Source: Phenylobacterium sp. LH3H17 (GTDB taxonomy: Bacteria > Pseudomonadota > Alphaproteobacteria > Caulobacterales > Caulobacteraceae). Taken from it: a stretch of 64,000 nt of DNA. Below are positions 16,893 through 18,863 of this stretch, in pieces (the first letter of the stretch is position 1; each line of letters starts with the position of its first letter). The notes under the pieces are model-generated. The model saw nothing but the letters and a program-made list of their open reading frames with translations, was not told the origin of the DNA and did no database searches. Made by a program: the position numbers and the translations under genes. The stretch covers positions 3,477,001-3,541,000 of the forward strand of contig NZ_CP101283.1 of assembly GCF_024298925.1 (NCBI RefSeq). Direction: 5' to 3'.

Positions 16893-17453
16893 TCAGGCTT
16901 CGAGCTCGATGTCCCAGTAGAGGTAGTCGAGCCAGCTCTGGTGCAGGTGGTGCGGTGGAAACTTGCGGCCGCGGTCTTGCAGCTCGTGGGCGCTGGGCCG
17001 CCGGGGCTTGTGGAACGGATGCATGTGGGCTTCGTGCGGCGTGCGCCCGCCCTTGTGCAGGTTGCAGCGGGCGCAGGCGGTGACGATGTTTTCCCAGGTC
17101 GTCCGCCCGCCGCGCGAGCGCGGCACCACATGGTCGAAGGTCAGGTCTTCGCCCGCGCGGCAGTACTGGCAGGTGAAGGCGTCGCGCAGGAAAAGGTTGA
17201 AGCGGGTGAAGGCCGGCGGCCGGTCCTGCGGCACATAGTGCTTCAGCGAGACGACGCTGGGGAGGCGCATGGCGAAGGAGGGGGAATGGACCTCGTGGTC
17301 GTAGGTCGAGACCACGTCGACCCGATCGAGGAACACCGCCTTGATCACCTCCTGCCAGGGCCAGAGGGATAGCGGATAGTAGCTGAGGGGCCGGAAGTCG
17401 GCGTTCAGCACGAGACAGGGCCAGCCGGACGGCGGGTGGCTAAGCACCTGCAT
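16893..17453 (-). CDS. HNH endonuclease family protein
   Basis: A 186-residue protein with a C-terminal HNH domain: CQYC (C95, C98), '[14 protein letters not shown]' (D107, H108), N122 in 'ENIV' and a second zinc pair CARC (C127, C130). The N-terminal 80 residues ('[19 protein letters not shown]') are a conserved extension seen in chromosomal HNH proteins of alphaproteobacteria, distinct from phage or restriction HNH. Its role is unknown; I see no methyltransferase or mobile-element neighbour. Confidence 0.9.
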
Positions 17454-17573
17454 GGCTTGACCTCCGTCGGCGCGAACCCGCGCCTATGGCGTACGCGTAG
17501 AGACTGAAGACGGGCCCCCTTTCGCGGTCTGGTCGCCCTCGAATCTCCGGACGGCGATTCTCGTGACCTGCGA

Positions 17574-17579
17574 ATTATA
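17574..17579 (-). promoter_or_regulatory. Candidate -10 element for the HNH gene
   Basis: A perfect TATAAT on the minus strand about 120 bases before the HNH start, in an otherwise GC-rich region. No convincing -35 is seen. The stretch 17454-17674 shows no gene. Confidence 0.3.
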
Positions 17580-17674
17580 GGGCAGTTTTCGAGACAGCTC
17601 CATGACTTGAAGCGCATCACCCCGTCTCACGGCTCGGGAGGATCAGACCGTGGACGGGGCGGGATCGCGGGACA

Positions 17675-17782
17675 CTAGACGCCGACGGCCGCGGTGGCGC
17701 CGGCGAGGCTCAGGCTGATCAGCACGAAGGCGACGGCGACGGTGGCGTCGAAGAGGCGGCCGATGTTCGAAAGAGCAGACAT
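17675..17782 (-). CDS. Tiny hydrophobic peptide A (35 residues)
   Basis: A 36-codon ORF with a good ribosome site (AAGGAA about 8 bases before ATG 17782). The peptide has a short amphipathic head ('MSALSNIGRLFD') and a single hydrophobic helix ending 'LAGATAAVGV'. From the Arg at position 9 to the end it aligns without gaps to peptide B (17988-18101) over 27 residues, with about 10 identities including R-x-FD and ATAAxG. It is probably membrane inserted. Its promoter shares a dyad and spacing with that of peptide B, and a TetR gene lies just beyond. I know of no named family. Confidence 0.7.
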   Translation of the reverse strand: MSALSNIGRLFDATVAVAFVLISLSLAGATAAVGV

Positions 17783-17844
17783 TGTTTCGTTCCTTCTTGA
17801 GTTTGGGCCCCGGCGGTTCCGACGCCCCGTCCATCTGGACAACG

Positions 17845-17865
17845 CTAAGATACCTCATATCTAAG
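17845..17865. promoter_or_regulatory. Dyad operator 1, upstream of peptide A
   Basis: CTAAGATA-CCTCA-TATCTAAG, an inverted repeat with arms matching at 7 of 8 positions and containing AGAT-N7-ATCT. It overlaps the putative -10 of the peptide A promoter. The same AGAT-N7-ATCT dyad is found before peptide B. Confidence 0.6.
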
Positions 17866-17874
17866 CGATGTACA
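17847..17874 (-). promoter_or_regulatory. Candidate promoter of peptide A
   Basis: On the minus strand TGTACA (17869-17874), a 16-base spacer, then TATCTT (17847-17852). The same -10 and spacer length occur before peptide B. The -10 lies within dyad operator 1. Confidence 0.45.
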
Positions 17875-17876
17875 GA

Positions 17877-17892
17877 TACATTTTACAATGTA
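17877..17892. promoter_or_regulatory. Perfect 6-4-6 palindrome upstream of the peptide A promoter
   Basis: TACATT-TTAC-AATGTA, perfect arms, just upstream of the candidate -35 in an AT-rich patch. It could be an extra regulator site. It does not resemble the AGAT/ATCT dyads. Confidence 0.35.
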
Positions 17893-17932
17893 AGCTATTA
17901 GAAAATGCATAGCTCTTGGCGGGCGGGATTGG

Positions 17933-17963
17933 ACAAATAAAAAGGGGGCCCGGAGGCCCCCTT
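17933..17963 (-). terminator. Rho-independent terminator of the peptide B gene
   Basis: Perfect 9-bp stem AAGGGGGCC/GGCCCCCTT with a four-base loop, followed on the minus strand by a T-rich run (TTTATTTG). It separates peptide B from the peptide A promoter, so the two peptides have independent transcripts. Confidence 0.85.
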
Positions 17964-17987
17964 CCCATCATGGATTGGGTTTCGAGG

Positions 17988-18101
17988 TTAGGCGCCGAGG
18001 GCCGCGGTGGCGGCGGCGACACCTAGGCCGAGGACCAGGAGGAACGCGGGGGCGATCCGGTCGAAGAACCGTTCGAAGTGGGTAAGACCAGCGAGAGACA
18101 T
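17988..18101 (-). CDS. Tiny hydrophobic peptide B (37 residues)
   Basis: A 38-codon ORF with ribosome site GAAAGG about 8 bases before ATG 18101. The head 'MSLAGLTHFERFFDRIAP' is amphipathic and the tail 'LGLGVAAATAALGA' completes one hydrophobic helix. It is a paralogue of peptide A. A strong terminator follows and a TetR-type operator array precedes it, so it is very likely a real, tightly controlled gene. Possible roles include a membrane stress peptide, a transporter regulator or a toxin; none can be shown from sequence. Confidence 0.75.
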   Translation of the reverse strand: MSLAGLTHFERFFDRIAPAFLLVLGLGVAAATAALGA

Positions 18102-18160
18102 GACACACACCTTTCAGTTTGAACCCCGGGGGAGCGGGGGCGTTTCTTATTTGAACGATG

Positions 18161-18180
18161 CTAAGATAGCAGCGATCTGA
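18161..18180. promoter_or_regulatory. Dyad operator 2, upstream of peptide B
   Basis: Contains AGAT-AGCAGCG-ATCT, the same AGAT-N7-ATCT layout as dyad 1. On the minus strand both sites share TATCTTAGC. It lies 59 bases from the peptide B start; dyad 1 is 62 bases from the peptide A start. Confidence 0.6.
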
Positions 18181-18190
18181 ACGGCGTCAA
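18163..18190 (-). promoter_or_regulatory. Candidate promoter of peptide B
   Basis: On the minus strand TTGACG (18185-18190), a 16-base spacer, then TATCTT (18163-18168). The -35 lies in the 27-bp palindrome and the -10 in dyad 2, so a bound repressor would block it directly. Confidence 0.55.
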
Positions 18191-18207
18191 GATGATCTTT
18201 ACGCCGT
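18181..18207. promoter_or_regulatory. 27-bp near-perfect palindrome between peptide B and tetR
   Basis: Two 13-base arms around a central G match at 12 of 13 positions, with outer ACGGCGT/ACGCCGT and inner AAGAT/ATCTT. Size and place, ending 26 bases before the tetR ATG, are those of a TetR operator controlling both divergent promoters. Confidence 0.75.
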
Positions 18208-18233
18208 CCAGATTCAGATTTAGAGTGACCGTG

Positions 18234-18863
18234 ATGAGAGAAACTGCTGCCGCCGAAACCCGCCCCTATCACCACGGCGACTTGCGCCGCGCGCTGATCG
18301 ACGCGGCCCGTCGCCTGCTGGAGTCCGAAGGGCCCACGGCGTTGTCCCTCCGCGCGGTCGCCCGGGAGGCGGGGGTCAGTCCGGCCGCGCCCTACCACCA
18401 CTTCAAGGACAAGGGCGAACTTCTGGACGCCGTGGCCCACGAGGGCTGGGACGTGCTGAACGCACAGATGGCCAAGGCCAAGGCCGAGGCGACCACCATC
18501 CAGGACAAGCTGACCAGCCTGGGCGTGTCCTATGTCCGTTTCGCCCAGGCCAATCCGGCGCTCTACCGCGTGATGTACGACTCCTCCCGCGACAAGGAAG
18601 CGCTTCCCGAGCACGCCCATACGGAAAACGACAGCGCCTACTGCCAGGTTCGCGACACCTTCATCGAGGCCGGCGCCGACGTGAACAACGAGATCGACCT
18701 CGAGCTGGCCACCAACGCCGCCTGGTGCGCGGCCCACGGCATGGCCGAGATGATCAGCTTCAAGATGTTCGATCATCTGAAGGTCGCCCTGGGTGGTGAG
18801 GAGGCCTTCATCCGCGCCACCTTCCAGCACCTTGGCATTTTCGCCGCCGCTCCTCGCCGCTAA
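18234..18863 (+). CDS. TetR-family regulator with WHG-type C-terminal domain
   Basis: A 209-residue regulator. The N-terminal HTH reads 'LSLRAVAREAGVSPAAPYHH' followed by 'FKDKGELLDAV'. The C-terminal half contains 'NPALYRVMYDSS' and 'AAWCAAHGMAEM', the latter being the WxxxHG signature of the TetR C-terminal WHG domain. I start it at ATG 18234; GTG codons at 18225 and 18231 are also possible, while ATG 18192 lies inside the operator and is unlikely. It is divergent from peptide B and presumably represses both peptide promoters and itself. The ligand is unknown. Confidence 0.9.
   Translation: MRETAAAETRPYHHGDLRRALIDAARRLLESEGPTALSLRAVAREAGVSPAAPYHHFKDKGELLDAVAHEGWDVLNAQMAKAKAEATTIQDKLTSLGVSYVRFAQANPALYRVMYDSSRDKEALPEHAHTENDSAYCQVRDTFIEAGADVNNEIDLELATNAAWCAAHGMAEMISFKMFDHLKVALGGEEAFIRATFQHLGIFAAAPRR

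Follow-up and report, generated by a model that had tools for sequence, protein, structure and literature searches.

A near-perfect palindrome upstream of a Phenylobacterium tetR gene is probably the junction of two abutting operators

A 27-bp palindrome (18181-18207) lies between a gene for a small peptide and a tetR gene. We analysed it within the window, that is, the whole stretch of 64,000 nt. The two arms are complementary at 12 of 13 positions around a centre at G18194, in agreement with the earlier note, which had called the palindrome near-perfect, and the symmetry extends further outward.

18175-18213, no strand: 39-bp near-palindrome with 17/19 arm positions complementary, composed of operator O4, 1 nt and operator O5; the full extent of the 27-bp palindrome

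The earlier note had also ranked it among the strongest palindromes in the window, and this was borne out: it ties for first at 27 bp, with two observed, and is the single best at 39 bp. Among 40 first-order Markov sequences of 64 kb each, 27-bp palindromes this good occurred at a mean of 0.225 with a maximum of 2, and none was as good as the 39-bp palindrome. The 27 bp alone are thus unusual, yet not beyond chance, because simulated sequences reach 12/13 now and then. Two elements lie at the middle of the palindrome, namely AAGAT-G-ATCTT at 18189-18199 and an ATG (18192) at its centre.

The palindrome was said to fall within an apparent TetR operator region, and five copies of a 19-mer were indeed found here. 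A repeat search grouped 18175-18193 in one 19-mer family with the copies at 17833, 17859 and 18149, and 18195-18213 is the fifth copy. The five copies lie within 381 bp and follow the 19-bp operator consensus ATCTnnRCnnnGYnnAGAT.

17833-17851, no strand: operator O1, ATCTGGACAACGCTAAGAT, overlapping the likely peptide A -10
17859-17877, no strand: operator O2, ATCTAAGCGATGTACAGAT, overlapping the likely peptide A -35
18149-18167, no strand: operator O3, ATTTGAACGATGCTAAGAT, overlapping the peptide B -10, with one departure from consensus, ATTT for ATCT
18175-18193, no strand: operator O4, ATCTGAACGGCGTCAAGAT, containing the peptide B -35
18195-18213, no strand: operator O5, ATCTTTACGCCGTCCAGAT, containing the likely tetR -35

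O1 and O2 precede peptide A, O3 and O4 precede peptide B, and O5 precedes tetR. All of them except O3, which is off at one position, fit the consensus exactly, and mismatches to the stricter pattern ATCTnnACnnnGTnnAGAT were 1, 1, 2, 0 and 0 across the five sites. At up to three mismatches, the window contained 19 matches versus 7.33 expected (sd 2.39, max 17, 100 shuffles).

Conservation was followed in a comparison set of 80 loci, consisting of the window plus 79 related loci with upstream sequence. The fetched loci were the best 80 of 366 relatives encoding a relative of this TetR, and L060, with 4 nt of upstream sequence, was excluded from the locus comparison. Their titles were mostly Phenylobacterium, Caulobacter, Caulobacteraceae or Caulobacterales, and some gave only Alphaproteobacteria, Pseudomonadota or bacterium. 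For nine loci in which the match began after the Met, the start was reset to the nearest in-frame upstream ATG. As the 80 loci share kinship, locus counts do not represent independent events. Up to 700 nt upstream, these loci contained 299 sites with at most two mismatches, 2 to 5 per locus. The 299 sites carry 24.1 bits over 19 columns, a figure raised by the collection method, in which a fixed-spacing pattern was used; the count of half-sites at any spacing alone is free of that. In this count, facing half-sites were separated by 3 nt in 235 of 237 inverted pairs, and back-to-back half-sites by gaps of -2 (2), 0 (20), 1 (35), 2 (8), 4 (6), 6 (1), 7 (79) and 8 (8) nt, while 600 nt of coding sequence from each of these loci contained no pair of either type. 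The sites therefore show what characterizes TetR-type palindromic operators: inverted half-sites at fixed spacing, beside the regulator gene and conserved among orthologues.

Spacing between the operators was less constant. Thirty-nine loci have an O4-O5 distance of 20, another 20 have 19 and six have 21; O4 was absent in 11 of the 80, and O5 in four loci that have O4. Three loci with divergent peptides (L138, L139 and L142, from G096, G235 and G131) showed a single O4-like site before tetR and no O5, which sets the tetR side of their operator array apart. By this comparison, the 27-bp palindrome appears as the seam of two abutting 19-bp operators and not as one binding site. AAGAT-G-ATCTT, described in the earlier note as a compressed version of the site, corresponds instead to the right half-site of O4 standing beside the left half-site of O5: the gap within a site is nearly invariant, and the spacing across the palindrome axis varies. 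The case illustrates a pitfall: a promoter's strongest palindrome need not be an operator and may instead mark where two operators abut.

The operators coincide with promoter-like elements on both strands.

18163-18190, minus strand: peptide B promoter, -35 TTGACG (18190-18185), 16-nt spacer, -10 TATCTT (18168-18163)
18198-18226, plus strand: likely tetR promoter, -35 TTTACG (18198-18203), 17-nt spacer, -10 TAGAGT (18221-18226)
17847-17874, minus strand: possible peptide A promoter, TGTACA (17874-17869), 16 nt, TATCTT (17852-17847); read from the sequence and unreported by the scan

The palindrome covers the likely peptide B -35, as had been proposed, with TATCTT 16 nt downstream, and this combination was the only sigma-70-like match in 17450-18400, versus 0.2 expected (scan threshold 9 of 12). 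A promoter match of the peptide B type was present in 72 of the 80 loci (shuffles: mean 0.27, max 2). Six of the eight loci missing it have TATTTA as -10 by eye, and the other two (L080 and L085) have neither O3 nor a peptide B ORF; all 11 O4-less loci retain the match, L070 with TTGAAT. With 8 of 12 consensus bases, the tetR promoter of the window is weak and, falling below the threshold of 9, was unreported by the scan. However weak, its -10 is shared: TAnnnT ends 6-9 nt before the counterpart of ATG 18234 in 80/80 loci and exactly 7 nt before it in 58, versus a mean of 6.3 and a maximum of 14 in shuffles of the 60 upstream bases at gaps of 6-9. As the hexamer lying 17 nt upstream of this -10, 43 loci have TTTACG, 10 have TGTACA, 8 have TTTACA, 11 have ATGGAT or ATGAAA and 8 have a single variant each, and because of these last two groups a tetR -35 within O5 is not universal. 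In the window, 7 bp separate the TTGACG and TTTACG boxes, which lie back to back within the palindrome, and the difference between them accounts for one of the two mismatched arm positions of the 39-bp palindrome.

The same loci also show where the tetR coding sequence begins.

18234-18863, plus strand: tetR coding sequence, ATG 18234, 209 aa, TetR_N + TetR_C_33

An ORF read from ATG 18192 would be too long by 14 codons. At the corresponding position, 42 nt before the tetR start, ATG was present in 29 of the 80 loci, and 43 loci have an in-frame stop within those 42 nt. Single-change codons in the 18192 frame were 56 synonymous versus 256 non-synonymous in 17 sequences (the window and 16 loci chosen for an open frame, with pairs up to 50% different compared with 30% in the coding tests), and these bases are also under operator constraint; codons 12-61 of tetR gave 2271 versus 191. 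Translation from 18192 was rejected on the upstream stops, the restricted occurrence of the ATG and the non-coding substitution pattern, and the sequence comparison places the tetR start at ATG 18234, downstream of 18192 as the earlier note had argued. The same note had the palindrome cover a tetR leader, which is probably not the case, because TAnnnT at 6-9 nt before ATG 18234 suggests a leaderless tetR mRNA whose transcript probably starts at or near that ATG. In Caulobacter crescentus, 375 leaderless mRNAs have been mapped (PMC4117421), so the architecture proposed for tetR is common in a related bacterium; the main text of that paper does not contain the word TetR.

The encoded regulator is firmly a TetR-family protein. 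It scored 55.8 bits against TetR_N (PF00440; Pfam cut-off 24) and 41.7 bits against the C-terminal ligand domain TetR_C_33 (PF13305; cut-off 26.8), and its structure model was all-helical with a pLDDT of 85. The closest solved structure was 3on2, a TetR-family protein from Rhodococcus RHA1, which resembles it in sequence (7.3e-23) and in fold (TM 0.71-0.77) and is described only as of unknown function, with no operator for comparison; the fold search otherwise gave generic TetR matches. FabR was the best NCBIfam match through similarity of the DNA-binding domain, but the score of 47.1 bits lies below the equivalog cut-off of 151, and therefore this TetR is not a FabR member. DesT matched over residues 14-75, a likeness that again corresponds to the DNA-binding domain.

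Two small peptides are encoded on the minus strand.

17988-18101, minus strand: peptide B, 37 aa, with one hydrophobic stretch resembling a membrane helix (by eye and hydrophobic count)
17675-17782, minus strand: peptide A, 35 aa, apparent paralogue of peptide B

The two look like paralogues because the peptide B profile finds peptide A at 2.4e-5. Single changes in the peptide B frame were 1722 synonymous versus 971 non-synonymous, compared with 526 versus 2098 and 398 versus 2250 in the other frames, a pattern indicating that this reading frame is under coding constraint; peptide A gave a small synonymous excess (720 versus 649) without a frame control. A peptide B counterpart was found in 75 of the 80 fetched loci, with too little sequence in L035 and L060 and none shown in L070, L080 and L085, and a second, more distant peptide ORF was present in 43 of 80 (ORF list read by eye). 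We surveyed 299 genomes of the order, with a tetR cut-off of 1e-40. tetR was present in 34 and the peptide B profile matched in 32, each in 5 of 54 genera; all 32 peptide B genomes are among the 34, and by coordinates the peptide match adjoins tetR in every one of them. The remaining two tetR genomes, G096 and G235, have divergent peptide-like ORFs and operators at the locus. The peptide match of G012 reads through a TAG, and in G151 the profile matched while the ORF filter listed no peptide. One peptide-profile match in G022 (C24), with no operator within 2301 bases, was treated as chance. Of 289 genomes sampled from the class, none but that of the window matched tetR.

Peptides A and B had no match at E 1 in Pfam, NCBIfam or PHROGs, and when 38 peptide B rows were searched in Pfam at E 0.1, five families appeared, each with a single member (best E 0.033). 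A literature search, with supplementary tables and most subscription journals outside its reach, found no paper that deals with this operator, with this TetR or with the peptide family. The arrangement of operators, promoters and peptides is kept in Caulobacter and Phenylobacterium relatives, and we found no published description of it. Two further loci are worth recording. In G086, an unlinked peptide copy (L108 1003-1199, C22 near 263505) has its own single operator, the same 5' hairpin and GGTGTGTGTC before the ATG. In G181 (L111), two adjacent peptide B-like genes and a third weak match are surrounded by six operator-like sites, which we read as peptides expanded in tandem.

The predicted 5' UTR of peptide B carries conserved elements of its own.

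18124-18139, minus strand: hairpin with loop CUCCCC in the predicted peptide B 5' UTR, stem covarying among relatives

The hairpin was evaluated in those of the 75 UTRs that do not exceed 62 nt, 42 sequences of which 37 are distinct; the other 33 are longer. Five of the six stem pairs change on both sides, with 31 such cells versus 8.5 in shuffles; slid controls dropped to at most 5, and 92.4% of cells were paired, L087, which breaks part of the stem, included. Directly before the peptide B start codon, UGUGUGU (18103-18109, minus strand) was found in 67 of the 75 UTRs, the exceptions being L057, L061, L065, L075, L082, L084, L087 and L096. Rfam returned nothing at E 1 over 17600-18300, a range that includes both the hairpin and the palindrome.

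To look beyond the locus, the window's own genome was scanned with the IUPAC pattern, one mismatch being allowed; 39 forward and 51 reverse matches were obtained, versus 6 and 5 for a reversed-pattern control. We then used R1, a sequence-only model built from 15 sites and their reverse complements drawn from 157 distinct sites. With 150 of 2623 candidates scored, R1 recovered the five sites on both strands in the own genome plus a partial match at C1:3103413, which outranks O3. In 18 other genomes, with 150 candidates scored in each, off-locus matches were found at G057 C5:219579, G116 C15:63174, G161 C1:1789647 and G086 C22:263680, with G255, G002 and G206 giving partial matches. A long ORF contains the G116 site, and G161 has a similar stretch. 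Among genomes without this tetR, G002 and G206 showed only those weak partial matches and G007 and G216 none; G136, in which tetR is present, had no R1 match at E 1 among the 150 candidates scored. Operator scores were 19.9 for L131 and 16.8 for L132, where the collected sites have a minimum of 15.8 and a 5th percentile of 23.2. A very strong operator (score 30.4) was located in G057 (L134 1580-1598), directly downstream of TTGACA and before an ORF resembling an SDR-type oxidoreductase by eye; it may belong to a wider regulon or to another regulator with the same motif. In the own genome, the one off-locus pattern match that was read, a near-operator (L014 1501-1519; C1:419421-419439) scoring 22.9, marginally under that 5th percentile, lies between divergent ORFs that by eye are oxidoreductase subunit-like and cytochrome c-like.

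Taken with high confidence, the palindrome is the O4/O5 junction, and the adjacent TetR would repress itself and both peptides until a ligand releases it, with tetR transcribed leaderless. One TetR dimer would sit on O4 and another on O5, side by side with centres at 18184 and 18204, a separation of about two helical turns, and together they would mask the back-to-back -35 boxes, the leftward TTGACG of peptide B in O4 and the rightward TTTACG of tetR in O5. A dimer on O3 would cover the peptide B -10, so that with O3, O4 and O5 occupied the promoters of peptide B and tetR could be blocked simultaneously, and occupancy of O1 and O2 would shut the peptide A promoter. The repressor would thereby silence both small membrane peptides and itself, and the ligand would free them together. 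With tetR transcription beginning at or next to ATG 18234, neither transcript would contain the palindrome, which would act as DNA. Observed are the operators, conserved and fixed in their inner spacing, the promoter-like elements, the point where tetR coding begins and the joint occurrence of tetR and the peptides. The binding of TetR to the 19-mers, side-by-side occupancy, the resulting block and repression, the transcript starts, the inducer and the function of the peptides are what we infer from position and conservation.

Three other explanations were weighed against this one. The 27-bp palindrome, with its AAGAT-G-ATCTT core, could itself be a single TetR operator, and its 12/13 symmetry, its rank among the two best of that length in the window and its suitable placement speak for this. 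However, O4 and O5 lie 19, 20 or 21 apart, a variation across the palindrome axis that a protein dependent on the axis would hardly tolerate and a binder of single 19-mers can, and O4 is lost in 11 loci altogether. Moreover, a palindrome of at least 12/13 occurs in only 12 of the 80 loci within the stretch searched, where centres lie between 75 and 25 nt ahead of the match start (as adjusted to ATG), and a lone 19-mer precedes the unlinked peptide copy of G086. The whole palindrome was rejected as the operator on its variable axis spacing, and we regard this explanation as very unlikely. An RNA role is less plausible still, to the point of being scarcely credible. It holds that the palindrome acts as a hairpin in a tetR leader, controlling translation or termination, with a start at 18192 or a long leader, and the arms could indeed fold if transcribed, just as an ORF is open from ATG 18192. 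Nevertheless, the leftward transcript is predicted to begin at about 18156 and the rightward one at about 18234, both excluding the palindrome; the 18192 codon is so often not ATG, or followed by an in-frame stop, and its frame changes in a manner not coding-like, though under operator constraint. A role as RNA was set aside on these predicted transcripts and the empty Rfam search.

It is also improbable, if somewhat less so than either of these, that another regulator mainly binds the operator family and that the neighbouring TetR is incidental. TetR binding is a prediction, a strong site stands before an unrelated gene in G057, and the weaker L014 site of the own genome precedes the oxidoreductase subunit-like ORF. 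On the other hand, the sites adjoin this tetR in 80/80 loci, and tetR and the peptides co-occur in the 34 of 299 genomes with tetR. The R1 search of the own genome, with five sites and one partial match elsewhere, points the same way, more weakly given the 150 of 2623 candidates scored.

Self-repression by TetR from the abutting operators remains the preferred reading, and it can be set beside the TetR/tetA type, in which divergent, autoregulated operators serve a TetR-family protein. TetR-family proteins have been described as repressing divergent neighbours less than 200 bp away (PMC3511530). The present locus is similar in its divergent gene 132 nt from tetR, its palindromic operators over promoters and the autoregulation expected; it differs in that the targets are peptides of about 35 aa and not a pump or enzyme, that there are five operators, and that a second peptide lies about 450 nt away. 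We put forward only tentatively, as a possibility we would not yet favour, a control at two levels over these lineage-restricted, paralogous single-helix membrane peptides: TetR acting through operators that double as promoter hexamers, and, post-transcriptionally, the covarying 5' UTR hairpin together with the nearly invariant UGUGUGUC before the peptide B start, with the back-to-back -35 boxes making transcription of peptide B and tetR mutually exclusive.

The locus has a repressor operator of the ordinary kind, but its setting is unusual, and its peptides have no family match in the libraries used. What was an isolated palindrome becomes a testable regulatory map that places five operators and three promoters, corrects the tetR start and includes two small peptides, the latter occurring in five genera of one family. 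With the operator consensus, both the regulon and the inducer can be sought in Caulobacter, which serves as a genetic model.
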